DNA of 64,000 bases, from NCBI RefSeq assembly GCF_020511115.1, contig NZ_JAJAVH010000006.1, positions 1 through 64,000 on the forward strand, written 5' to 3'. The notes below the pieces were generated by a model that saw only the letters and a program-made list of their open reading frames with translations, did no database searches and was not told the origin of the DNA. The position numbers were made by a program, and so were the translations under genes. This DNA is from Luteimonas panaciterrae. GTDB taxonomy: Bacteria; Pseudomonadota; Gammaproteobacteria; Xanthomonadales; Xanthomonadaceae. Positions 7,850 through 50,061 of this stretch are shown in pieces; the stretch's first letter is position 1, and each line of letters starts with the position of its first letter.

Positions 7850-8866
7850 ATGTCCACAACCAACCGCCAATTGCGCCTGAAAACCCGTCCCGAAGGCGCG
7901 GTCCGCAAGGAGGATTTCGATCTCGTCGAGCAGCCTTTGCCCGAACTCAAGGACGGCGAAGTGCTGGTGCGCGTGCTGTACCTGTCGATGGACCCGACCA
8001 ACCGGGTTTGGATGCGTGATATCCCGCAGTACATGCCGCCGGTGGCGATCGGCGAGGTGATGCGCGCCGCGGGCATCGGCCGCGTGGTTGCATCGAAGTC
8101 CGCGCGCTACGCCGAAGGCGATCTGGTGCAAGGCTTGCTGGGCTGGCAGGACTACGCGCTGTTCCATGAGGATAAGGCGCAGGGTTACGTCAAATTCCCC
8201 GCGCAACCGGGACTGCCCCTGCCCACCCTGCTTGGCGCCTGCGGCATGAGCGGAATGACCGCCTACTACGGCCTGACCGAAATCGCGCCGGTGCAGCCCG
8301 GCGAAACGCTGGTGGTCTCCGCCGCCGCCGGCTCGGTCGGTTCGATCGCTGGACAGATCGGCAAGATCCACGGCGCGCGCGTGGTCGGTATCGCCGGCGG
8401 CGCCGACAAGTGCCGTTATCTGGTCGAGGAACTCGGATTCGACGCCGCCGTCGACTACAAGGCCGCCGACTGGAAACAGGCGCTCAAGGCCGCCACGCCC
8501 GATGGCGTGCATGTGAACTTCGAGAACGTCGGCGGCGAGATCATGCGCGCCGTGCTCTCGCGCATGGTGATCGGCGGCCGCGTCGCGCTGTGCGGCGTGA
8601 TCGCCAACTACAACAGTGACAGCCGCCCCACCGACGATTTCAGCGTCGCGATCTTCAAGCGCCTAACCATCCGCGGCTTTCTCATCCTGGACTACAAGCA
8701 CGCGAAGGAAGCCGTGCAGGCGATCAGCGGATGGCTGCGCGACGGCAAGCTCAAGACCGAGGAAACCGTCGCGGACGGCCTGGAGAACGCGCCGCTCGTG
8801 CTCAACCGCCTGTTCGACGGCAGTCATCGCGGCAAGCTGGTGCTGCGCGTCGATCCGACCGCCTGA
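7850..8866 (+). CDS. NADP-dependent oxidoreductase, CurA/prostaglandin-reductase family
   Basis: A 338-residue zinc-independent medium-chain dehydrogenase/reductase. The N-terminal LYLSMDPTNRVWM segment and the cofactor loop AAAGSVGSIAGQIGK mark the leukotriene-B4-dehydrogenase/CurA group, which reduces C=C bonds of enones using NADPH. The segment NVGGEIMRAVLSRM before the C-terminal fold also fits. Last gene of the run beginning at 2348, 23 bp after the hydrolase. In this pathway it may reduce an alpha,beta-unsaturated intermediate; not provable from sequence. Confidence 0.85.
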   Translation: MSTTNRQLRLKTRPEGAVRKEDFDLVEQPLPELKDGEVLVRVLYLSMDPTNRVWMRDIPQYMPPVAIGEVMRAAGIGRVVASKSARYAEGDLVQGLLGWQDYALFHEDKAQGYVKFPAQPGLPLPTLLGACGMSGMTAYYGLTEIAPVQPGETLVVSAAAGSVGSIAGQIGKIHGARVVGIAGGADKCRYLVEELGFDAAVDYKAADWKQALKAATPDGVHVNFENVGGEIMRAVLSRMVIGGRVALCGVIANYNSDSRPTDDFSVAIFKRLTIRGFLILDYKHAKEAVQAISGWLRDGKLKTEETVADGLENAPLVLNRLFDGSHRGKLVLRVDPTA

Positions 8867-9137
8867 GCATGTGCCTCCACCTCGTCATCAAGACTCCTGC
8901 ATTTCAATAAACGGCCTCCGCGCGGGACTTCCCATGTACCGCGCGCCTTCTGTATGATCGCCGCTCGCTTCGCCGAGGAAGCCTTCATGCAAAGTGTCCG
9001 CATCCGCGCCTGACGCAGGCAATCCCGCCTCAGGTCGCCTACCAGCTCCGCTGGTCAGCACGTCTCAGCACTGAATCCCGCTGAAGCGCACTTCCCGTGT
9101 GCGGTGTCGCCGCACGCCTTTCGGAAACAAATCCATC
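8867..9137 (+). other. Intergenic leader before the efflux gene
   Basis: No convincing gene. A TATGAT box is at 8953-8958 with no good -35. A nine-codon-or-shorter reading frame (MQSVRIRA) lies at 8987-9013 behind a GAGGAA. Several small inverted repeats follow (for example CCAGC/GCTGG near 9050 and CGCAC/GTGTGCG near 9090). It could be an attenuator-type leader, but the evidence is weak. Confidence 0.25.
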
Positions 9138-10391
9138 ATGTCTATTCCTGCCTTTCGCGCCGGCAAGGCGGCGATCGCGTTCATCCTCGTCACCGCGATG
9201 CTCGACATCGTGGCGATGGGGATCGTCATCCCCGTTCTGCCCCCTCTCATCGAACAATTCGCTGGCGATAGCTCACGCGCCGGCATCATCAATGGCGTCT
9301 TCGTGGCGCTGTGGGCGTTCATGCAATTCGTGGCGTCGCCCGTCATCGGCTCTTTGTCTGATCAGTACGGCCGGCGCCCGGTCATCCTGCTGTCGACCGC
9401 AGGCCTCGCCGCCGACTACATGCTGATGGCACTGGCGCCGAACCTATGGTGGCTGGCCCTGGGCCGCATCATTGCCGGCGTCACTTCCGCCAGCTTCACC
9501 ACCGTGTACGCCTACATGGCCGACGTCACCACGCCGGAGAATCGTGCGCGCGGCTACGGCCTGGTCGGTGCTGCGTTCAGCGCCGGCTTCGTCGCCGGTC
9601 CGTTGCTGGGCGGCGTGCTCGGCGAATGGTCGCCGCGTGCGCCGTTCTGGGTAGCGGCGGCGATGAGCGCCATGGCGTTCCTCTACGGCGCTTTCATCCT
9701 GCCGGAATCGTTGCCGAAGGAACGGCGCATGACCTTCTCGTGGAAACGCGCCAACCCGCTCGGCGCGTTGCGGTTGCTGCGCTCGCATCCGGAACTGACC
9801 GGGCTGGCCACCGTCAACTTCCTGCTCTACTTCTCCCACCACGTGTTCTCCGCGGTGTTCGTGCTGTACGCGGGGCATCGCTACGGACTGGGAGCGTGGC
9901 AGGTCGGTCTGATGCTCGCGTTGGCGGGCGTGCTCGAGCTGATCGTGCAGGGTGTGCTCACCGGTCCCGCGGTGAAGCGTTTCGGCGATCGCAAGGTGAT
10001 GGTATTCGGCCTGTTCGCCGGCACCGTCGGCATCGCCTGCATGGGACTGGCGCCGACCGGCCTGGCCTTCACCCTGGCGCTGTTCCCGAACGCGCTATGG
10101 ACGCTGGCGATGCCGACGCTGCAATCACTGATGACGCAGCGCGTTTCGGAGTCGGAACAGGGACAGTTGCAGGGCGCCAACCACAGCGTCGGCAGTATCG
10201 CCGGCGTGTTGTCGCCACTGTTCTTCGGTGCGGTGTATGCCGCATCCGTCGGGCCCGATGCGCCGTTCCCGCACATCGGCGCCGCGTTCCTGATCGCCGC
10301 GTTGGTGTTGCTGGCCGCGGCGGTGCTCGGCTGGCTGGTGGCGCGTCGCGCGCAGCGCGGCCACGACGTCGAGATCGTCACCGATCCCTGA
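9138..10391 (+). CDS. MFS efflux transporter, TetA-like (DHA1 family)
   Basis: Inner-membrane major-facilitator protein of 417 residues with about 12 hydrophobic segments. Motif A between TM2 and TM3 reads SLSDQYGRRPV. The segments YAYMADVTTPENRARGYGL and GPLLGGVLGEWSPRAPFW are characteristic of tetracycline/H+ antiporter-type DHA1 pumps. I prefer the ATG at 9138; an in-frame GTG at 9099 would add 13 atypical residues. No tetR-like regulator is adjacent. The substrate is not predictable; similar chromosomal proteins often do not confer tetracycline resistance. Confidence 0.82.
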   Translation: MSIPAFRAGKAAIAFILVTAMLDIVAMGIVIPVLPPLIEQFAGDSSRAGIINGVFVALWAFMQFVASPVIGSLSDQYGRRPVILLSTAGLAADYMLMALAPNLWWLALGRIIAGVTSASFTTVYAYMADVTTPENRARGYGLVGAAFSAGFVAGPLLGGVLGEWSPRAPFWVAAAMSAMAFLYGAFILPESLPKERRMTFSWKRANPLGALRLLRSHPELTGLATVNFLLYFSHHVFSAVFVLYAGHRYGLGAWQVGLMLALAGVLELIVQGVLTGPAVKRFGDRKVMVFGLFAGTVGIACMGLAPTGLAFTLALFPNALWTLAMPTLQSLMTQRVSESEQGQLQGANHSVGSIAGVLSPLFFGAVYAASVGPDAPFPHIGAAFLIAALVLLAAAVLGWLVARRAQRGHDVEIVTDP

Positions 10392-35603: not shown

Positions 35604-37085
35604 ATGTCACGACCCATGTCACGTTTAGCCCTCAATCGCCGCGAATTCCTCAAGGGCTGCGGCGCCACGGTCGCCGGCGGCGTCGCAGGCCCTGCGCTGT
35701 TCTTCTCCGATCCCGCCTTTGCCGCGGCCAATACCTACGACACCGTCGTGCACGTGTTCCTGCGCGGCGGCATCGACGGGCTCAATCTGGTGCCGCCGAT
35801 TGCCGGCAACGACCGCACGTTCTACGAACAGGCACGTCCGGACCTCGCCATCGCCGCCACCGGCACCTACGCCGCGCTGCCACTGACGCTCGCCGACGGC
35901 AGCGCCACGGGCTTCGGCCTGCATCCTTCCGCGACCGGCCTGCGCGACATCTGGGCCGACGGCAAACTGGCGATCGTGCAATCCTGCGGCATGCTGACGA
36001 CGGTGACGCGCAGCCATTTCGATGCGCAGCTCTATCTCGATCTCGGCACGCCCGGACAACACGGCAGCGGCACCGGCTGGATCACCCGCGCCTGGAACAC
36101 GCAGCCCGGCACCATCGGCAACGAAATCATGCCGGCGCTGGCCGTCAACAGCCGCACGCCGGCGAACCTGCTCGGCGCGACGCAGGCGCTCAGCATGGGC
36201 AACCCGCAGGACTTCGCGCTCAACGCAACCGCCTGGGCATGGCAGAAGCGGCGCGACGGCGATCCGGCCGGCTACAAGGGCGTCAGCGAAACGCTGGCCT
36301 CCCTTTGGGCCGGCAGCACCGCGCTGGAGGCGAGTGGACAACGCGCCGATCGCTCGCTGCGCGTGATCGCGGCGCAACCCTATGCCGCGCTGCCGGCCGG
36401 ATGGCCGACCACCGAATTCGCGCGCCAGTTGTGGACGGTGGCGCAATCGATCCGCTTCAACCTCGGCATGCGCTATGCCGCGATCGATCTCGGTGGGTGG
36501 GACACACACGAGAGCCAAGGCACCGCCGGCAGCGGCTACCACTACTACCAGAACAAGATCGCCGAACTGTCGCAGGCGCTGACCGCGTTCTACGCCAATC
36601 TCAAGACCGGTGGCGAGATCGGGCGCGTGACCGTGATCGTGCAATCCGAATTCGGTCGCCGCGTGCGCCAGAATGGCAGCGGCGGCACCGATCATGGCTA
36701 CGGCAATCCGCTGCTGGTGTTCGGCGGCGCGGTCAACGGCCGCAGGATGTACGGACAGTGGAAGGGGCTGGACCCGGAAGTGCTGTCGTCCTACTTCGGC
36801 GATATTCCGGTCACCACCGACTACCGCCGCGTGCTCTCGGAATTGCTGATTCAGCGCATGGGCAACTCACAGATCAGCACGGTGTTCCCCGGTTACACCG
36901 GCTACGTGCCGCTCGGCCTGTTCGCCAGCAGCAACCTCACGCCGCCGCCCACCGGCACGCAACCCGCGTTGCCCGGCGATTCGCCCACGCGACACATCGA
37001 GGTTCCGACGAAACGATTCATCTCGACGAAACGGCGCACCTTCTATTGGCATGTGCTGCGCTGGCTGGAGTTGATGTTCAAGTAA
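35604..37085 (+). CDS. DUF1501 protein with Tat signal
   Basis: A 493-residue protein with a twin-arginine signal: NRREFLKG followed by CGATVAGGVAGPALFFSDPAFAAA. The domain has VVHVFLRGGIDGLNLVPP, FGLHPSATGLRDIW, IDLGGWDTHESQG and EFGRRVRQNGSGGTDHGYGNPLLVFGG, the latter resembling the metal-binding segments of alkaline-phosphatase/sulfatase-superfamily proteins to which DUF1501 is related. It is thus a folded, probably metal-containing periplasmic or exported protein. GAGGAGA precedes the ATG; operon with the DUF1800 gene. Function unknown. Confidence 0.85.
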   Translation: MSRPMSRLALNRREFLKGCGATVAGGVAGPALFFSDPAFAAANTYDTVVHVFLRGGIDGLNLVPPIAGNDRTFYEQARPDLAIAATGTYAALPLTLADGSATGFGLHPSATGLRDIWADGKLAIVQSCGMLTTVTRSHFDAQLYLDLGTPGQHGSGTGWITRAWNTQPGTIGNEIMPALAVNSRTPANLLGATQALSMGNPQDFALNATAWAWQKRRDGDPAGYKGVSETLASLWAGSTALEASGQRADRSLRVIAAQPYAALPAGWPTTEFARQLWTVAQSIRFNLGMRYAAIDLGGWDTHESQGTAGSGYHYYQNKIAELSQALTAFYANLKTGGEIGRVTVIVQSEFGRRVRQNGSGGTDHGYGNPLLVFGGAVNGRRMYGQWKGLDPEVLSSYFGDIPVTTDYRRVLSELLIQRMGNSQISTVFPGYTGYVPLGLFASSNLTPPPTGTQPALPGDSPTRHIEVPTKRFISTKRRTFYWHVLRWLELMFK

Positions 37086-37159: not shown

Positions 37160-39931
37160 TCAATCGAAGTGCAGGTTGTACTCCAGCCAGAACTGCCGGC
37201 CATACGGATCGTAGTTGCCGACCGGGTAATACGGCCAACCACCCTCGCCCGTCTTGTCCAGCGGCGGATGCGTGTTGCGCAGGTTGTTGACGATCAGCGA
37301 CAGCGAATTGTTGTCGTCGAACCGATAGCCGACGCTGCCGTTGTAGAGCATGTAAGGCGCGATGCGGCCGGTGCCGTCGGCATTGGGCAGGCTGCCGTAG
37401 CGGATGCCGTAGAGCGTTGCTGACCACGGCCCGCGCTGCCAGCTCACGTTGCCGTTGAGCTTGCTGCGCCAGCCGTAGAAATCGAGCCCGTTGCGCATGT
37501 CGATGGTGTCGGGATCGTCGGGAAACTGACGATATTCGTGCTTGATCACCAGGCTGTAGGCCAGGCCGGCACGGAAATCGCCGTAGGTACCGGCATTCCA
37601 GCGATAGTTGGTCTTCAGATCGATGCCGCTGACCCGTTCGTAGGATGCGTTGATCGCATTGGTGAGTACGCGCCGGACCTGGTCCGGCTGCACGGAAGCA
37701 TCCGGAGGATTGCGCAGCACGCGACTGATCGCATCCTGGCAAAGCGGCGAATTGATATCGCGCGGTTCACCGCTGAGGGTACTACCGAGGCGGCAATCCG
37801 CTTCGGTGCGCAGGATGCGGTCGGTATCGAGGTCGGTGACCTGATTATCGAGACGGACGTTGTAGTAATCCACGGACAGATCGAAGTTCTGCGAGGGCGA
37901 CCACACGAAGCCGAAACCGTAGGACTTCCCGTTTTCCGGCTTGAGTTCCGGGTTTCCGGTGCTGGTGTAGTCGATCGCCAATCCCGAGTAATCGCATTCG
38001 TCATACGGCTGCCCAGCGGTGCGGCAGCGCCAGTAGTCGGTCATGCCCGGGTTATAGCCGCGCGTCTCGGCGGCGAAGACATAGTTCATGTCCGGCGCGC
38101 GGAAGCTGGTGGCGGCGGTGGCGCGCAGCAGCAGGCTCTGCACAGGACGGAACTCAAGACCGGCGTTCCACGTGCTCTTGCTGATCTTGCGGCCGCCGAA
38201 ACGGAACTCGTCATAACGTGCGGCCGCGTTCGCCGTCAGCTTCTCGAAGATCGGCACCTTGATCTCGGCGCCAATCGCGTAGCGGTCGCGCTCGCCTCGG
38301 GCCGGCACGCCCGCGGTCGTGTTCCAGAAAACGCCCTGCCCCAGTCTCGGATCGGGCCTGTTGCTGTAGCCCTGCTGCCCCGCCTCGACCACGGCGGCCA
38401 GATCCACGCCGCCCGCCGGCAAGTCGAACAGCTTGCCGTTGACGGTGAAGCTGAAGTTCTCGATCCAGGAACTGTTGACGCTCTCGTAGCGACCGCTCAG
38501 CGCGTCGTATTCGGACGAATTCAGCGGCCTGTAAAACCGTGACAGATCCGGGTTGTAGACGTTGACCCCGTCGATCTCGCCCAGCTTCGGACCCAGGAAG
38601 AATTCGTTGACGCCAACGAGCAACGCACGCCGCTTGGTGCGGTTCTCGTAACGCCCGCGATTGTAGGCGGCCTCGTAGCCCCAGTCGGAATCGCCGAAAC
38701 TGCCCTTCGCCCCGACCGTGAACGCCCAGCTTTTCTCGAGATACCGCCGGTTGTTGGCGTGCGCCGAGGTGATTTCCTCCGGCATGAAGTTGCGCTGCAG
38801 GATTTCCGGATTCCCGGTCGCCTGATTGATGAAATAACCGTTGCTGCTGGCATCCGAAGTCCAGGTCGGCACGCTCGTGTTGTTCTGGATGCTGGCGATG
38901 CCGAGCGCTACGTCGGCGAAGAGTTCGGTACGATCGTTCAAGTGCCAGGTCAGGGCACCGTAGGCATCGGCGTTCTTCTTCTCGGTCTGGATGGTCCAGT
39001 ACAGCGGCCTCGCCTCGTAGCTGCCGCAGTAGTAGCCCTGCCTGGGATTGAAGGCGCGGAACACGCTGTCCCCAGCCAGATAGCCGGCCGCGGAGCAGGC
39101 TTCCTCGCCGGGATCGATGTAACTGTTGCGCGACAGGTCGGCGCGACGGCGATTGAACACCGTGTACGGCAATCCCGGCACGCCAGTGGGCTCGTCGGCG
39201 TAGGAGTCCATGTAATCGCGCTGCGATCCCCAGATCGGCTTGCGATGCAGGAATTCGATGCCGTACACCACATCAATGGTGTCGTTCGAGAATCCGCTGG
39301 TGAACTGCAGGCGCTGATTCTGCCCGCCGCCTTCCTGCGTGCCACCGATGCGCACGTTGAGATCGCTGCCGTCGTAATGCTTCTTGAGAATGATGTTGAC
39401 CACGCCGGCGACCGCGTCCGATCCGTACACGGCCGACGCGCCACCCGCCAGCACCTCGATGCGCTCGATCAAGGCGCTGGGAATGTTGGCCAGATTGACG
39501 ATGCTGAGCGATCCCTCGTACGCGAGCGGATAGTCGGCCAGTCGCCGGCCGTTGAGCAGAATCAGGGTGTGGTTCGGCCCGAGACCGCGCAGATTGATCG
39601 TATTGGCCGCCGGGGTGAAGGTGTTGCCGAAATCCTCGCCCTGCACAGAACCATTGTTCTGGACCAGCGAACTGATCGCATCGAACACGCTGCGGAAACC
39701 CTGTGCATCGATTTCCTCCTTCTTGATCACGGTGACCGGCGACGGCCCCTCGAGCGTCGCGCGCGGGATACGCGAGCCGGTGACCACGACGTTCTCCAAA
39801 CTGGTGACCTCGCCTTGCGATGTGGGTTTCGCTTCCTCCACGGTTTGCGCGACAGCGGCACCGGACAATCCGGCGAGAAGAAAAAGGGATGCCCACGGCA
39901 ACGGGCGTCGCGATCGTCTTGCGGCGTACAT
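37160..39931 (-). CDS. TonB-dependent outer-membrane receptor beside the RiPP cluster
   Basis: A 923-residue receptor with a signal peptide (PWASLFLLAGLSGAAVAQ). The plug contains SLENVVVTGSRIPRATLEGP, TINLRGLGPNHTLILLNGRR and AGGASAVYGSDAVAGVVNII, the signature of the large 'TonB-dependent receptor/plug' group of Xanthomonadales that often handles peptides or glycans. The barrel ends FWLEYNLHFD, so the final residue is Asp after Phe. GAGGACA precedes the ATG. It is divergent from the HlyD/C39-transporter operon across 314 bp, so it may be co-regulated with the peptide genes and serve uptake or secretion of the product (inference). Confidence 0.88.
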   Translation of the reverse strand: MYAARRSRRPLPWASLFLLAGLSGAAVAQTVEEAKPTSQGEVTSLENVVVTGSRIPRATLEGPSPVTVIKKEEIDAQGFRSVFDAISSLVQNNGSVQGEDFGNTFTPAANTINLRGLGPNHTLILLNGRRLADYPLAYEGSLSIVNLANIPSALIERIEVLAGGASAVYGSDAVAGVVNIILKKHYDGSDLNVRIGGTQEGGGQNQRLQFTSGFSNDTIDVVYGIEFLHRKPIWGSQRDYMDSYADEPTGVPGLPYTVFNRRRADLSRNSYIDPGEEACSAAGYLAGDSVFRAFNPRQGYYCGSYEARPLYWTIQTEKKNADAYGALTWHLNDRTELFADVALGIASIQNNTSVPTWTSDASSNGYFINQATGNPEILQRNFMPEEITSAHANNRRYLEKSWAFTVGAKGSFGDSDWGYEAAYNRGRYENRTKRRALLVGVNEFFLGPKLGEIDGVNVYNPDLSRFYRPLNSSEYDALSGRYESVNSSWIENFSFTVNGKLFDLPAGGVDLAAVVEAGQQGYSNRPDPRLGQGVFWNTTAGVPARGERDRYAIGAEIKVPIFEKLTANAAARYDEFRFGGRKISKSTWNAGLEFRPVQSLLLRATAATSFRAPDMNYVFAAETRGYNPGMTDYWRCRTAGQPYDECDYSGLAIDYTSTGNPELKPENGKSYGFGFVWSPSQNFDLSVDYYNVRLDNQVTDLDTDRILRTEADCRLGSTLSGEPRDINSPLCQDAISRVLRNPPDASVQPDQVRRVLTNAINASYERVSGIDLKTNYRWNAGTYGDFRAGLAYSLVIKHEYRQFPDDPDTIDMRNGLDFYGWRSKLNGNVSWQRGPWSATLYGIRYGSLPNADGTGRIAPYMLYNGSVGYRFDDNNSLSLIVNNLRNTHPPLDKTGEGGWPYYPVGNYDPYGRQFWLEYNLHFD

Positions 39932-40245: not shown

Positions 40246-41511
40246 ATGAATGACGGATTGTTCCGGCGCGAGGTACTCGACGCCAGAAAGGAGCAATGGC
40301 TAGGGACGGTACGATTGACCACGTCGCGGCTGGGCTGGCCGATGGCGCTGATCGCCGCTGCCGCCGTGCTGGCGTTGCTGCTGGTGCTGGCGTTCGGCAG
40401 CTATGCGCGCAAGGAGCGCGTGCAGGGGCGCCTGATCCCGTCCGGAGGATTGCTGAGTGTGGCGGCACCGGCGAAGGGGGTCGTCGCGCGTGTGCTGGTG
40501 CGCGAGGGCGATGCGGTACGCCGCGGCCAGGAACTCCTGGAAATCTCCTCGGACCTCGACGCCCCCGATATGGAAGGCGGATTGAGCGCGACCATCGGCG
40601 CGGCGCTGCAACAGAAACGCGAGCGCCTGCAAACCGACCTCAATGACCTGCGCCGAAGCGAAGCGCAACGCACGGCGGCGCTACGGGAGAAGATCGCATC
40701 ACTGTCGCAGCAGCGCACGGCGGCGGAACAGCGCCATCGCCTGCGCAGCACCCAGGCCCGCAACGCGCGTGCGCTGCTGGAACGCGTGCAGCCACTGGAA
40801 AGGCAGCAGATCGTCAGTGCCGTGCAAATCCAGGGCTACGAAGCCGCCGCGCTGGAAGCCGAAGCCGCGGCGGAAACCAGCCGGCAGGAACAACTCGACA
40901 TCGAACAGACGCTCGCCGCCACGCGCGCCGAGTTGAACGCACTGCCGCTGGACACCGCCACGCGTCGCAGCGAGATCGAACGCCTGCTGGCGGACGTCTC
41001 CGAGGACAGCGCACGCAATCGCGTGGAAGGCGGCTTGCGGCTGCGCGCGCCGCGCGCGGGGACGATCGCGGGCCTGTCGGTCTCGGCCGGTGACGCCGTC
41101 GGCCAGAGCCAGCGCCTGCTCTCGCTCATCCCGGAGCGCTCAGCGCTGCAAGCGGAGCTGTGGGTGCCGAGCCGCGCCGCCGGCATGCTGAAGACCGGTA
41201 CGCGCGTGGCGATGCGTTACCACGCCTTCCCCTATCAGCAATACGGGCAACGTTTCGGCCGCATCGTCGAACTTTCCGGCAGCGCGTTGCCGGCGCAGGA
41301 AATCCTGGCACGCAGCGGCATCCGCCTCGATGCGCCAGCCTATCGCGCGATCGTCGCGCTGGATGCGGACACCGGCGCCGCCCTGCCCTTGCGCGCGACC
41401 ATGACGCTCGACGCCGATCTGCTGCTCGAACGCAGACGCCTCTACCAGTTCATCCTCGATCCGCTGCGTACCGTCGACCCGCCGCAAGGCACGGCCGGAG
41501 GCACGCCGTGA
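40246..41511 (+). CDS. HlyD-family periplasmic adaptor of the peptide exporter
   Basis: A 421-residue membrane-fusion protein: a short cytoplasmic N-terminus, one TM segment (MALIAAAAVLALLLVLAFGSYA), and the lipoyl half-motifs VQGRLIPSGGLLSVAAPAKGVVARVLVREGDAV and LRAPRAGTIAGLSVSAGDAVGQ. These flank a long coiled-coil hairpin (about residues 120-270, Glu/Arg/Gln/Ala-rich). It bridges the inner-membrane ABC transporter to an outer-membrane channel such as TolC, which is not encoded here. Its stop overlaps the transporter GTG start (GTGA), so the two are co-translated. First gene of the graspetide-like cluster. Confidence 0.87.
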   Translation: MNDGLFRREVLDARKEQWLGTVRLTTSRLGWPMALIAAAAVLALLLVLAFGSYARKERVQGRLIPSGGLLSVAAPAKGVVARVLVREGDAVRRGQELLEISSDLDAPDMEGGLSATIGAALQQKRERLQTDLNDLRRSEAQRTAALREKIASLSQQRTAAEQRHRLRSTQARNARALLERVQPLERQQIVSAVQIQGYEAAALEAEAAAETSRQEQLDIEQTLAATRAELNALPLDTATRRSEIERLLADVSEDSARNRVEGGLRLRAPRAGTIAGLSVSAGDAVGQSQRLLSLIPERSALQAELWVPSRAAGMLKTGTRVAMRYHAFPYQQYGQRFGRIVELSGSALPAQEILARSGIRLDAPAYRAIVALDADTGAALPLRATMTLDADLLLERRRLYQFILDPLRTVDPPQGTAGGTP

Positions 41512-43643
41512 AACTTTCGGACCAGAAGCGGCTCCCCGTGGTGCAGCAGAGCGAGATCGCCGAATGTGGCCTCGCCTGTCTGGTGATGATCGCCCGTTAT
41601 CACGGCCACGACATCGACCTGGCCAGCATGCGGCGGCGTTTCCCGATCTCGCTCAAGGGCGCCGGCCTGTCGCGGCTGATCTCGATCGCCGGCACGCTCG
41701 GTTTCGAGACGCGGCCGCTGCGCGCCGAAGTGGAGCATCTGCGCGAGATCACGCCACCCTGCATCCTGCACTGGGACCTCAATCATTTCGTCGTACTGAA
41801 GCAGATCGACCGCGAACGTGCTGTCGTCCACGATCCCGCGCGCGGCGAAGTATCGATGTCCCTGGCCGAATTCGGGCGCCACTATACCGGCGTGGCACTG
41901 GAACTGACGCCCGCCTCCGGATTCGAACCGGTGCGCGAACGCCAGCGCATCTCCGTGTCGTCGCTGGTCGGCCGCGTCACCGGCGTGCGCCGCGCGCTGG
42001 CGCAAGTCCTGCTACTGGCGTTTTCGCTGGAAGTGTTGACGCTGGCGCTGCCGCTGTCGATGCAGTGGGTGGTCGACGACGTCCTGGTCTCGGCCGACCT
42101 CGGGCTGTTGACGCTGATCGGCATCAGTTTCCTCGCCATCGTCGTGCTTCAGTCCGCCACCGCCGCGATGCGCGGCTGGGTGGTGGCCAGCATCGGGGCT
42201 TCGCTCAATTCGCAATGGCTGAGCAACCTGTTCGGCCATCTATTGCGACTGCCGCTGGATTACTTCGAGAAGCGCAGCGTCGGCGGCGTGCTGTCACGCT
42301 TCATGTCGCTGCAGACGATCCAGCAGACCCTCACCGGCAGCTTCGTCGAAGCGGTACTGGACGGCCTGACGGTATCCCTGGTGCTGATCCTGTTGCTGCT
42401 CTACAGCCCGCTGCTCACCGGGCTGGTGCTCGGCGCCTTCGCCATCTATGCCCTGCTGCGCTGGCTGGCCTATCGCAAGCTGTGGTCGCTGAAGGAAGAG
42501 CAGCTGACCTTCGTGGCGCGTCAGCAGACGCAGCTGATCGAATCCATCCACGGCGTGCAGACCATCAAACTGGCGAACCAGCAGGCGCAGCGGCGCGCGC
42601 GTGTCGCCAATGCCACCGTGGAAGTCGCCAACCGTGAAGCCGCGATCGGTCGCGTGGCGGCGCTGTTCGGCGGACTGTCGCGGCTGGTCTTCGGCACGCA
42701 GCGCGTGTTGCTGATCTGGATCGCCGCCTGGATGACGCTGCGCGGACAGTTCAGCGCCGGCATGCTTGTCGTCTTCGTCGCCTACGCCGATCTCTTCGCC
42801 ACCCGGACGAGCAGCTTGATCGACAAGTTCGTCGATCTGCGGTTGCTCGGCCTGCATGGCCAGCGCATCGCCGACGTCGCGCTGGAACCACCGGAGCCGC
42901 ACGTCACCGGTCAGTATTCCGGTCCCGTGCCGGAGCCGACGCTGGTCGTGGACGGCGTCAGTTTCCGCTACGCCGAGGACGAGCCGTGGATCCTGCGCGA
43001 TTGCAGTCTGCGCATCGAGGCCGGCGAATCGGTCGCCATCGTCGGCCCCTCTGGATGCGGCAAGACCACGCTGGCCAAGCTGCTGCTCGGTCTGCTGCAT
43101 CCCGCGCACGGCAAGATCGAGATCGGTGGTGTCGACATTCGCCATTACGGCCTCGGCAACTATCGCGCCCGCTTCGGCACCGTGATGCAGGACGATGCCC
43201 TGTTCGCGGGATCGATCGCGGAGAACATCAGCGGTTTCGACACCGATGCGACGCCGGAAGCCATCGAGGCCGCCGCGCGCGCCGCGCAGATCCACGACGA
43301 CATCCTGCGCATGCCCATGGGCTACGAATCGCTGGTCGGCGATATGGGGTCCACGCTTTCCGGCGGCCAGAAGCAACGCGTGCTGCTGGCGCGGGCGCTG
43401 TATCGCGAACCCTCCATCCTGCTACTGGACGAAGCGACCAGCCATCTTGACGTCGCGCGTGAACGCGCGATCAACGATTGCATCGCGGAATTGGCGATGA
43501 CACGCATCGTCATCGCGCATCGCCCGGAGACAATCCTCAGCACCGATCGCGTTATCGAATTGCGCGACGGCGCAGCGATCGTGCGAAGCGCATCAGAATA
43601 CGCAGGCGTATCGATCAGGGAGCGTGCGAGACATCACGATTAA
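41508..43643 (+). CDS. Peptidase-containing ABC transporter (C39 PCAT) for double-glycine peptides
   Basis: A 711-residue protein processing and exporting leader peptides. The N-terminal C39 peptidase has the catalytic Cys20 in QQSEIAECGLACLVMIARYHG, His93 in LNHFVVLK and Asp109 in VHDPARG, all intact. A six-helix TM domain follows (about 160-440). The ATPase has Walker A GPSGCGKTT, signature TLSGGQKQRV, Walker B ILLLDEATS and the H-loop IAHRPE. C39 peptidases cut after GG; both downstream precursors carry IAGG at the predicted site. Start is the GTG overlapping the adaptor stop; a longer open frame to 41160 is a shadow of the adaptor gene. Confidence 0.93.
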   Translation: MKLSDQKRLPVVQQSEIAECGLACLVMIARYHGHDIDLASMRRRFPISLKGAGLSRLISIAGTLGFETRPLRAEVEHLREITPPCILHWDLNHFVVLKQIDRERAVVHDPARGEVSMSLAEFGRHYTGVALELTPASGFEPVRERQRISVSSLVGRVTGVRRALAQVLLLAFSLEVLTLALPLSMQWVVDDVLVSADLGLLTLIGISFLAIVVLQSATAAMRGWVVASIGASLNSQWLSNLFGHLLRLPLDYFEKRSVGGVLSRFMSLQTIQQTLTGSFVEAVLDGLTVSLVLILLLLYSPLLTGLVLGAFAIYALLRWLAYRKLWSLKEEQLTFVARQQTQLIESIHGVQTIKLANQQAQRRARVANATVEVANREAAIGRVAALFGGLSRLVFGTQRVLLIWIAAWMTLRGQFSAGMLVVFVAYADLFATRTSSLIDKFVDLRLLGLHGQRIADVALEPPEPHVTGQYSGPVPEPTLVVDGVSFRYAEDEPWILRDCSLRIEAGESVAIVGPSGCGKTTLAKLLLGLLHPAHGKIEIGGVDIRHYGLGNYRARFGTVMQDDALFAGSIAENISGFDTDATPEAIEAAARAAQIHDDILRMPMGYESLVGDMGSTLSGGQKQRVLLARALYREPSILLLDEATSHLDVARERAINDCIAELAMTRIVIAHRPETILSTDRVIELRDGAAIVRSASEYAGVSIRERARHHD

Positions 43644-43702
43644 GACGCTTCTAACAACCAATCAATGGACTTTGCCTTAGCATCGAGCACGACCATAGCC
43701 GA

Positions 43703-43727
43703 TGCCGGACGGCTTTCGTTTCCGGCA
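43703..43727 (+). other. Hairpin before the first precursor gene
   Basis: TGCCGGA / TCCGGCA 7-bp stem with an 11-base loop in the 98-bp gap between transporter and precursor, ending 14 bp before the precursor ATG. It may be a partial terminator or an RNase/processing site that uncouples precursor mRNA from transporter mRNA. Confidence 0.35.
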
Positions 43728-43741
43728 CAAGAGGACATGTC

Positions 43742-43906
43742 ATGAGCCAGAAAGACATCAGCGAAACCAGCCGCCCGCTTGCCCGCAACGTCGCTCGCGA
43801 ATTGACGCCGGCCGAAATCGAAGCCATCGCCGGCGGCCGTCCCGCAACCACCCACGCCACCGGCCCGAACGGTGACGACCCGGCCGATCCGGGCGATCTT
43901 GCTTAA
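43742..43906 (+). CDS. Double-glycine RiPP precursor peptide 1 (graspetide-like)
   Basis: A 54-residue peptide, start behind AGAGGA. The leader has RPLARNVARELT, then PAEIEAIAGG, with GG at residues 31-32 forming a C39-type cleavage site. The predicted core is 22 residues, beginning RPATTHATGPNG and ending DDPADPGDLA. It has Thr acceptors (three: positions 4, 5 and 8 of the core) and Asp donors (13, 14, 17, 20) and no Cys, so it is unsuited to lanthionine chemistry but suited to Thr-Asp ester cross-links by the ATP-grasp enzyme. The leader segment PLAR...AREL recalls the PFFARFL helix recognised by microviridin ligases. Confidence 0.82.
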   Translation: MSQKDISETSRPLARNVARELTPAEIEAIAGGRPATTHATGPNGDDPADPGDLA

Positions 43907-44005
43907 GGCCGCATAGGCCAACGCACGGACGCGCATCCTGCTTCATTCAATACAACTCATTCGCACCGGCCGCACGAGCCGGCCCGCGACATTCAGGAGA
44001 CATCC

Positions 44006-44176
44006 GTGAGCAAGTTTGAAACGCAGAAAGACCAGACTGCACGTCCGTTCGCCCGCGTCGCCGCGCGCGAGCTGACGAGGGAAGAAATCGAAGTCATCGC
44101 CGGTGGCCGTCCGCCGCCGGATCACACCCATGCCACGGGTGCCAACGGCGACGATCCCAGCGATCCCGGCGTTTGA
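44006..44176 (+). CDS. Double-glycine RiPP precursor peptide 2 (graspetide-like)
   Basis: A 56-residue peptide with a GTG start behind AGGAGA. The leader has RPFARVAARELT, then REEIEVIAGG, with GG at residues 33-34. The predicted core is also 22 residues, beginning RPPPDHTHATGANG and ending DDPSDPGV. It shares THATGxNGDDPxDPG with precursor 1 while the flanking core residues differ; the leaders align through AREL and IAGGRP. No Cys. The conserved Thr (core 7 and 10) and Asp (core 15, 16, 19) are the obvious cross-link candidates. Two paralogous precursors, 99 bp apart, imply gene duplication with selection on the core motif. Confidence 0.82.
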   Translation: MSKFETQKDQTARPFARVAARELTREEIEVIAGGRPPPDHTHATGANGDDPSDPGV

Positions 44177-44186
44177 TGCCATCCCA

Positions 44187-44238
44187 CCGCCCGTTCGGGC
44201 GGCAGCAGAACGTGCGCCCCGCAAGCCGGGGCGCATTT
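44187..44238 (+). terminator. Tandem hairpins between precursor 2 and the ATP-grasp gene
   Basis: First CCGCCC-GTTC-GGGCGG (44187-44202). Then TGCGCCCC / GGGGCGCA (8-bp stem, 7-base loop, 44213-44235) followed by only TTT. It looks like a leaky terminator, which would keep the modifying enzyme at lower expression than the precursors, as is common in RiPP operons. Confidence 0.55.
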
Positions 44239-44269
44239 GCATCCAGAGACGCCGGAGTCCGCATCCCGC

Positions 44270-45379
44270 ATGAAGAGAAGTCCGCTGATCCTTTCCGTCT
44301 ACGCGCACGACATCCACGCCCATGCGGTGTGCTGGGGCTTGCGCCGCAATGGCGTCGCACCGGTCTGGGCGCGCAGTCTGGCCGACGATGCGCTCGCGCC
44401 GATCTCGTTCGAATGCGACGATCGCAATGGCCTCGTCGCTACGGGCGCGTTCGCGCCGGAATCGGTCGGCAGCATCTGGTTCCGGCGTCCGAGGATTCCC
44501 GAAGAGTTTCCCAACACTCGCGAGAGCGATCTCCCGTTCGTGCGCAACGAATGGAAGCGCTTCATCCACAACGCCTACGCGGTCGCCGATGCACTACCTG
44601 GCGCGTTCTGGGTCAATCGTCCGAGCGCGGCCGTCGAAGCCGAGAACAAGTTGACGCAGTTGCTCGTCGCGCAACGCTGCGGATTGACGTTTCCGCGCAC
44701 GCTGGTGTCGTCCGACCCGGCACGAATCCGTCGCTTCGTCGCCGACAACAAGCAAGTCGTCTACAAACCCTTCCAGACCCACACCTGGCAGGACGCCGAC
44801 GGCCGGATGTACAGCACTTACGCGCGCACCATCGACGCCAGCATGCTCGAGGACGACGACAGCCTGCGCCAATGCCCCGGCATCTACCAGGCGTTGGTGC
44901 GCAAGACGCATGATGTCCGCGTCACTGTCATCGGCGATCACTTCTTCGCCGCCAGACTGCAAGGCGACGACGATCCGACCTTCGTCGACTGGCGCTCCTC
45001 CTCCATCGGCAATCGCGTGCGCAGCGGTGTCGCGACCTTGCCCACGGCGCTGGAAACGAAGATCTCCGCGCTGATGCGCGAACTCGGCATCGTCTTCGGC
45101 TGCGTCGATCTGGCCATCGATGCCGATGGCGATGCCCACTTCCTGGAGATCAACCAGTCCGGGCAATTCCTGTTCCTGGAAGATTCCGTGCCGGAATTGC
45201 CTATCCTGCAGGCGATGTGCGCGATGCTGGCGCAAGGCCGCACCGATTACGCGCTGGATGCGATCACGGACGTGTCGTATGCCGACTATCTCGCCGGTGA
45301 GGAACACCGACAATGGTGGGATAGCGTCAGCGGCGGCATTCGCGAAGGTGGACGGATTCCTGGCGTGAGCCTGGAGTAA
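44270..45379 (+). CDS. MvdD-like ATP-grasp peptide ligase (graspetide maturase)
   Basis: A 369-residue ATP-grasp enzyme. The pre-ATP-grasp part has SVWF-like SIWFRRPRIPEEF. The linker NRPSAAVEAENKLTQLLVAQ followed by CGLTFPRTLVSSDP is the signature of MvdC/MvdD and related graspetide ligases. VVYKPFQTHTW provides the ATP-binding Lys, KTHDVRVTVIGD the central strand, and DLAIDADGDAHFLEINQSGQ the Mg-binding Asp/Glu/Asn set. The enzyme would form ester (Thr/Ser) or amide bonds with Asp/Glu side chains of the two precursors. Only one ligase is present. The ATG at 44270 is preferred; a TTG at 44237 is in frame upstream. Confidence 0.88.
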   Translation: MKRSPLILSVYAHDIHAHAVCWGLRRNGVAPVWARSLADDALAPISFECDDRNGLVATGAFAPESVGSIWFRRPRIPEEFPNTRESDLPFVRNEWKRFIHNAYAVADALPGAFWVNRPSAAVEAENKLTQLLVAQRCGLTFPRTLVSSDPARIRRFVADNKQVVYKPFQTHTWQDADGRMYSTYARTIDASMLEDDDSLRQCPGIYQALVRKTHDVRVTVIGDHFFAARLQGDDDPTFVDWRSSSIGNRVRSGVATLPTALETKISALMRELGIVFGCVDLAIDADGDAHFLEINQSGQFLFLEDSVPELPILQAMCAMLAQGRTDYALDAITDVSYADYLAGEEHRQWWDSVSGGIREGGRIPGVSLE

Positions 45380-45399: not shown

Positions 45400-46215
45400 T
45401 CAGGCCGCCAACAACCGCGAGGCTTCCCGCGCGACCGCCAGCGGATGGGCGGCATCCTCCTCGTTGCCGTCGCCCAGCCACCATGCGGCCGACAGTCCGG
45501 TGTAGGCCAGCAACCATTGCAGCAGTCGCCGCGGCTCGATCGCGGCGGCCTCGGCGATGATCTCGAGGCGGCCCGCCACGCGCTCCGGCGCGAGACCGAA
45601 TTCTTCTTCCGGATTGCAGAGCATGTTCGCGTAATCGAAACCGCGCTCGCCGTAGACGCGTTTCGGATCGATGACGAGCCAGCCGCGTTCCTCGCCGAAA
45701 TCGAGTACGTTGTCGTGATGCAGATCGCCGTGCAGTACCGTGATGTCTCGCGGCTCGGCGAGCAGCTGTCTGAAGACGGCTAGCGATTCCGTCAGCACAC
45801 CGCCGTACTGATTCGCCATCGGTTCCAGATCGCGAAACCATTCCTGCAACGTCAGCAGGTTGGGCGGCGGAGGCGCCTTCTGTGCATGCAATCGCTCGGC
45901 GGCCGCGCAGAGGATGCGACAGGCTTCGTCGTCCCTGCCTTCCCGCACCATGCGCGTCAGCGAGCGCGTTCCCGTGGCGCGCTCCATCAGCAACGCGCCG
46001 CTCTCGGTGTCGTGCGCAAGCACGCGCGCGGCGCCGTTGCCGTTCCACCAGGCCATCAGCAGGCCGCCCAGCTTCTCTTCGGCCTCGCGCGCGAGCTTGA
46101 GCATGGCCGGCACGCCATTGGCGCACCGCACCGGCATCAGATCGCTGCTATGAGTGTTGAAAGCCTCGCCGTCGGGCGTCAGTTCCCAGCGGTCGAGATA
46201 AGGTGCGAATAGCAT
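45400..46215 (-). CDS. APH(6)-like aminoglycoside phosphotransferase family protein
   Basis: A 271-residue kinase-like protein beginning MLFAPYLDRWELTPDGEAF, as in APH(6) streptomycin kinases. It has the catalytic loop LHGDLHHDNVLDFG and the metal segment IDPKRVYGERGFDYANMLCNPE, both close to APH(6)-family signatures. GGAGA precedes the ATG at 46215. Convergent with the ATP-grasp gene (20 bp between stops), hence not part of that operon. A role in streptomycin resistance is possible from family membership, but chromosomal relatives can act on other sugars or remain silent. Confidence 0.8.
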   Translation of the reverse strand: MLFAPYLDRWELTPDGEAFNTHSSDLMPVRCANGVPAMLKLAREAEEKLGGLLMAWWNGNGAARVLAHDTESGALLMERATGTRSLTRMVREGRDDEACRILCAAAERLHAQKAPPPPNLLTLQEWFRDLEPMANQYGGVLTESLAVFRQLLAEPRDITVLHGDLHHDNVLDFGEERGWLVIDPKRVYGERGFDYANMLCNPEEEFGLAPERVAGRLEIIAEAAAIEPRRLLQWLLAYTGLSAAWWLGDGNEEDAAHPLAVAREASRLLAA

Positions 46216-46302
46216 CAGCTGATGTCTCCGGAGATTCGTCCCGAATGCCCGCGACACGTGTCCACGAAGACAACTGTCAAACGGACATCGGAACCATCCG
46301 GA

Positions 46303-47558: not shown

Positions 47559-49667
<2,109 letters not shown>

Positions 49668-49755
49668 GTTGGGAATTCCTAAAAGGGGCTAGCGATGAAC
49701 CGCGCGGGACCCTTGCCCCTGGCGGGCGGATCGCGCGACGGTCCGCGCGATCCAT

Positions 49756-49785
49756 AAAAGAACCGCGGCGCATTGCTGCGCCGCG
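49756..49785 (-). terminator. Terminator between rpsO and pnp
   Basis: On the - strand CGCGGCGCA-GCAA-TGCGCCGCG (9-bp stem) followed by GTTCTTTT. The stem begins 16 bp beyond the rpsO stop. It probably gives partial termination with readthrough into pnp. Confidence 0.8.
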
Positions 49786-49800
49786 ATCGGGATATTTCGA

Positions 49801-50061
49801 TTATCGACGCAGACCGAGCTTCTCGATCAGGGCCTTGTACCGCGTCGCGTCTTTGCGATGCAGGTAGTCGAGCAGGCTGCGACGGCGGTTGACCATCTTC
49901 AGCAGGCCGCGACGGCTGTGGTGATCGTGCTTGTGCGTCTTGAAGTGTTCGGTGAGGTGGCTGATGCGCGCGGTGAGCAGGGCGACCTGCACTTCCGGCG
50001 AGCCGGTATCGTTGTCACCGCGCTTGTTGTCGGCGATGACTTGACTGGTATCGATAGACAT
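49801..50061 (-). CDS. rpsO: 30S ribosomal protein S15
   Basis: An 86-residue ribosomal protein with the S15 signature [25 protein letters not shown] (here [10 protein letters not shown]), [23 protein letters not shown] and KLGLRR at the end. It binds 16S rRNA helices 20-22 early in 30S assembly. In E. coli it represses its own translation via the leader. It has its own promoter (50204-50176) and a 5' UTR of roughly 110 bases, in which autoregulation could occur. Confidence 0.97.

Follow-up and report, generated by a model that had tools for sequence, protein, structure and literature searches.

A very probable thatisin-type graspetide cluster with two precursors in Luteimonas panaciterrae

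A 64,000-nucleotide stretch of Luteimonas panaciterrae DNA (hereafter the window, meaning the whole stretch that was analyzed) carries a compact five-gene cluster that we assign, with high confidence, to the thatisin type of graspetides (group 16), the thatisin core used in this comparison being presumed from the name. We regard the identification with thatisin as strong but not sealed. The cluster itself is real and probably works as a graspetide producer and exporter. A previous reading of the window, made from its sequence alone, had proposed that a graspetide is made and exported here, and this proposal is well supported by the ligase family, the fold, the leader type, the C39 exporter and the conserved donor and acceptor residues.

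Between positions 40246 and 45379 of the + strand, the sequence and its open reading frames agree with the gene order given in that sequence-only reading, namely HlyD, C39-ABC, two precursors and an ATP-grasp enzyme. The features are as follows:

40246-41511, + strand: HlyD-family periplasmic adaptor, 421 aa (HlyD_3, 65.9 bits against a Pfam cut-off of 22.2)
41508-43643, + strand: C39-peptidase ABC exporter, 711 aa, GTG start (Peptidase_C39, ABC_membrane and ABC_tran above cut-off in Pfam)
43742-43906, + strand: precursor 1, 54 aa, leader ..RPLARNVARELTPAEIEAIAGG, predicted core RPATTHATGPNGDDPADPGDLA (from sequence)
44006-44176, + strand: precursor 2, 56 aa, predicted core RPPPDHTHATGANGDDPSDPGV (from sequence)
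44205-44240, + strand: GC-rich hairpin, possible attenuator, between precursor 2 and the ligase (coordinates from sequence)
44270-45379, + strand: graspetide synthetase (ATP-grasp macrocyclase), 369 aa (NCBIfam, solved-structure matches, Foldseek)

The translational overlap noted between the HlyD and C39-ABC genes was confirmed and consists of GTGA, and both of the double-glycine peptides previously noted are present at the lengths claimed for them. The GTG start of precursor 2 is preceded by AGGAGA. The ligase reading frame was called mechanically from TTG 44237 to its end at 45379, but a start at ATG 44270 is more likely, given that the alignments of its relatives begin at residues 2-4 counted from that ATG and that the TTG falls within the hairpin.

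By sequence and by modeled fold, the window enzyme groups with peptide macrocyclases. Its best NCBIfam model was TIGR04187 (204 bits, E 2.6e-60, under the curated cut-off of 350), and the MvdD and MvdC models gave 137 and 136 bits, both also under their curated cut-offs; Pfam matches were weak and under cut-offs. The enzyme had been described as MvdD-like, which is no more than an approximation, TIGR04187 outscoring both MvdD and MvdC. The same graspetide models were hit by all 24 ligases of our alignment, which comprises 20 of the 26 close ligases and four outgroups (omitted: L014, L016, L023, L024, L028 and L031). A sequence search against solved structures, with E up to 0.01, returned six matches (5ig8, 9bou, 5ig9, 7mgv, 7m4s and 7drm), every one a graspetide synthetase; the enzymes are MdnB, PruB, MdnC, CdnC (a Chryseobacterium RiPP-associated ligase), AMdnB and PsnB. 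When a structure model built from the 24 aligned sequences (mean pLDDT 86.8) was searched with Foldseek, ranks 1-32 were occupied by graspetide synthetases only, namely chains of MdnC, CdnC, PruB, AMdnB, MdnB and PsnB, and RimK folds appeared from rank 33.

We considered whether the gene could instead encode an ATP-grasp enzyme of the RimK or glutathione-synthetase type that acts on a non-RiPP substrate and merely lies beside unrelated small reading frames and a bacteriocin-type exporter. Weak matches to the RimK model (35.6 bits), the glutathione synthase model (27.1 bits) and an S6-modifying phage family (41.8 bits, the single PHROGs match of the ligase) point in this direction, as do the RimK folds that follow in the Foldseek ranking. 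They are set against 136-204 bits for MvdC, MvdD and TIGR04187, against the 32 leading Foldseek ranks, on which we reject a RimK-like function for the ligase, and against the co-occurrence and synteny of precursor and ligase described below, and we consider this alternative barely conceivable. Grouping with non-peptide carboxylate-amine ligases, which the sequence-only reading had named as evidence that would speak against it, was seen in neither the sequence nor the fold searches. A PHROGs search with the precursors gave no matches. One ligase match was found genome-wide (five of eight first-look candidates scored), and no acetyltransferase was found among the five cluster genes and the five neighbors scanned. 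Methyltransferases were likewise not found among the five cluster genes and the five scanned neighbors (NCBIfam, Pfam).

The precursors were compared across 25 loci (L006-L030, the window's included; L031, from genome G228, was omitted since its ligase gene is cut off by the contig end), which yielded 28 sequences, 27 of them distinct. THATG and GDDPxDP are unchanged in all 28 while third codon positions differ, which argues that the precursors are more than chance reading frames; the invariant core residues vary in their third codon position with the exception of the first Asp, which is GAC in every copy. Both Thr residues of THAT and all three core Asp residues are invariant, so that at each of these loci a precursor with conserved Thr donors and Asp acceptors adjoins the ligase, the arrangement by which graspetides are recognized. 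The residue preceding THAT is T, H, S or N and, being variable, is unlikely to be a donor. THATG is followed by Pro in 27 of the 28 precursors, the lone exception being window precursor 2 with Ala, and the following position is occupied by Asn (26 copies) or Gly (two). In the leader, RP[LFI]AR occurs in 27 copies and RPLGR in the remaining one.

The core is much better conserved than either the ligase or the leader, with minimum pairwise identities of 79% for the 14-residue core, 47% for 20 in-group ligases and 45% for a 20-residue leader segment. Excerpts of PMC8939145 describe a leader motif, Phhx(1,2)h, in about half of graspetide precursors, which the window-type leader RP[LFI]AR fits, and report diverse cores even among closely related graspetide ligases. 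The near-constant core of the present loci contrasts with the diversity described in those excerpts and offers a lead on function. According to locus reading and a genome-wide count of the core pattern, two precursors are present in the window, G160 and G065, and one in each of the other 22 loci. The closest relative, Luteimonas aquatica (G070; ligase 80% identical), has precursor 1 only, with a single core pattern in its whole genome.

We surveyed 395 genomes of the Xanthomonadaceae, the window's genome counted. A ligase at 52-100% identity occurs in 26 of them, the next matches being at 38% or less. A scan with a degenerate DNA version of the core (HATGx[N/D/S/G]GDDP and similar) also gave matches in 26 genomes, comprising 25 of the 26 with a close ligase and one of the other 369; the control, the same pattern read backwards, gave 0 in each row listed. 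Pattern and close ligase therefore occur together in 25 of 395 genomes, the window's included. The genome with a ligase lacking the pattern is G228, whose contig ends within the ligase gene, and G261 was rejected as a further member because its pattern match sits in no precursor-like reading frame. Elsewhere in the family a THATGPNGDDPxDP core adjoins a ligase of 52-80% identity, with named Luteimonas and Lysobacter species among the hosts; relatives with the cluster include L. aquatica and Luteimonas suaedae (G244), both in the window's genus, and Lysobacter chinensis (G160). Occurrence within the window's genus is patchy (4 of 36 genomes, the window's included), and among 369 genomes spread across the class the core pattern was found in the window's genome and no other. 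The sequence-only reading had suspected a new or little-studied class. We abandoned a new class, since the same core recurs with the same type of ligase in these 25 genomes and fits the thatisin group.

Besides the window's genome, 25 genomes have a close ligase, and synteny was assessed in 20 of these with tblastn, hits being kept if they covered 30% or more of the query. All 20 loci have a precursor next to the ligase, 19 have a C39 exporter and 18 have HlyD, and the order HlyD-C39-precursor-ligase is present in 18. One locus (L040, in G089) retains precursor and ligase at 8160-9558, and HlyD and C39-ABC are absent from its 18-kb neighborhood; export there, if it happens, must go through another system. 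Another (L050) has a short HlyD-like reading frame of 205 aa. This short HlyD in a relative, together with the sole replacement by Ala of the Pro found in the other precursors, could be taken to mean that the window cluster is a decaying relic. We find this very unlikely, as all of the window genes are open, the C39, ABC, HlyD and ATP-grasp matches cover most of each model, and stretches resembling ribosome-binding sites precede both precursors.

The genes pnp and rpsO lie at 47559-50061 (- strand) of the window, 2.2 kb past the ligase with three genes between. They were also found within a few kb downstream of the ligase in 5 of the 20 related loci (L036-L039 and L055), namely the three other loci of the window's genus (g1) and two of genus g20, and not near the ligase in the remaining 15; the site of the cluster looks stable in these two genera. 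Upstream of the cluster are a gene for a DUF1501 protein (35604-37085, + strand) and a TonB-dependent receptor gene (37160-39931, - strand), and an aminoglycoside/hydroxyurea kinase-family gene (45400-46257, - strand; APH_6_hur, 297.8 bits) is convergent with the ligase gene. We rejected these genes as parts of the cluster, as they lie beside it in 1 of the 20 loci, that of the closest relative (L036). The window's genome also contains, elsewhere, a second C39-peptidase gene (contig C45, 62342-62719), possibly belonging to another peptide exporter.

In all 25 loci the gap that separates the last precursor from the ligase contains a strong GC-rich hairpin; the gaps were folded up to a motif close to the N-terminus of the ligase and thus include the first ligase codons. 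In 19 of the 25 it was stronger than all 40 shuffles of the gap; the window hairpin, equalled by 2 of 40, is unimpressive by this test. A terminator scan requiring a T-rich tail did not include the window hairpin among its calls, and a promoter scan found no sites. We propose that the hairpin is a putative attenuator, which would reduce expression of the ligase relative to that of the precursors.

In the ligase tree the window pairs with L007 (97/99). Its deeper placement is unresolved and two of the four outgroup sequences (L032 and L034) landed inside the in-group on a long branch, and for these reasons we draw no inference on vertical descent versus transfer. In the precursor tree, precursor 2 adjoins precursors of another genus, g14, with a support of 0.82 over about 50 residues, which is too weak to claim a transfer.

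Thatisin and iso-thatisin reportedly come from Lysobacter antibioticus and contain two interlocking macrolactones, and thatisin presumably has a THAT core, as its name suggests. The window cluster resembles the thatisin system in having one graspetide synthetase, a GG leader, an NHLM-type C39 exporter, a Lysobacter-related host and the THAT core presumed for thatisin; it differs in its two precursors, its Luteimonas host and the Ala after THATG in precursor 2, in place of the Pro of the other 27 copies. In excerpts of PMC13097080, thatisin and iso-thatisin constitute group 16, proline cis/trans isomerism is described in the group, and its members often co-occur with NHLM-type exporters and DUF proteins. 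The top NCBIfam model of the window exporter is indeed NHLM_micro_ABC1 (TIGR03796; 461 bits, under the cut-off of 853), and an exporter is present in 19 of the 20 related loci. As for DUF proteins, the five cluster genes had no DUF match above cut-off in Pfam, and of the two DUF genes near the window cluster, the DUF1501 gene recurs at one of the 20 related loci and the DUF5671 gene at none. Thatisin is also listed with graspetides lacking a lactam ring in an extract of PMC9826346, and appears in an extract of PMC12127232 only as a similarity that antiSMASH gave for a Serratia. In the literature searched, the core string returned nothing relevant, no paper joined graspetides with Xanthomonadaceae or Luteimonas, and two joined them with Lysobacter.

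The cluster might instead represent a separate, uncharacterized graspetide group that merely resembles thatisin, given that its core is likened to a presumed thatisin core and that Lysobacter has other graspetides: precursor cluster 859 has its own residue pattern (PMC8939145, Makarova et al., in part), and Gra-8 of Lysobacter capsici belongs to group 19 (PMC9576775, in part). We judge this improbable. The NHLM-type exporter agrees with what excerpts of PMC13097080 describe for the thatisin group, the GG leader, the host genus and the name agree with thatisin as well, and both ligase and core form a continuum that extends from the window's genus into other genera of the Xanthomonadaceae, one of which includes a named Lysobacter.

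The thatisin assignment can be set beside comparisons with other graspetide systems. Enzymes of the PruB/TIGR04187 type are similar in that TIGR04187 is the best NCBIfam model and the closest solved structures include PruB, and dissimilar in that the window cluster and its scanned neighbors lack a methyltransferase and the TIGR04187 score is under cut-off. Plesiocin (PsnA2/PsnB) is made with one ligase, as in the window cluster, from a precursor with repeated TTxxxxEE motifs, whereas the window has a single core with Asp acceptors; PsnB and the window ligase are 20-22% identical in fold alignments. Both are ester-only graspetides, as plesiocin is described in part of PMC9826346 and as the window product is predicted to be. 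Microviridin (MdnA/MdnB/MdnC) shares the enzyme fold and the presumed Thr/Ser to Asp/Glu ester chemistry; its two ligases, Lys-derived lactam and acetyltransferase (PMC9826346, in part) have no counterpart in the window cluster, which is without a second ligase or acetyltransferase and has no Lys in either predicted core.

In the mechanism that we propose for this thatisin-type cluster, the ligase would recognize the leader through RP[LFI][AG]RxxAREL and would use ATP to phosphorylate Asp side chains of the core. The two conserved Thr residues of THAT would then attack the activated Asp residues and form ester rings, with the loss of 18 Da for each. Two rings are expected because two Thr and three Asp are invariant, their number and pairing being predictions. 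The C39 domain would cut after GG, and the ABC/HlyD pair would export the 22-residue products.

What is new here is small, and consists of the two precursors, the Pro-to-Ala variant and a core that is near-constant over diverged ligases. The cluster extends a characterized graspetide group to Luteimonas in a natural two-product version, which published survey tables may already include. Precursor 2 would be a natural test of proline-dependent isomerism, if the Pro that it has lost is the isomerizing one. The most interesting point is that the core hardly varies, which hints less at an arms race than at a single fixed target, for example a receptor or protease that is itself conserved. Our fuller interpretation is offered only tentatively and is more likely wrong than right: that a core near-frozen across ligases down to 47% identity reflects one conserved target common to these Xanthomonadaceae, such as a self-directed signal or a conserved protease, and that the precursor 2 variant tests how the Pro following THATG contributes to cis/trans isomerism.
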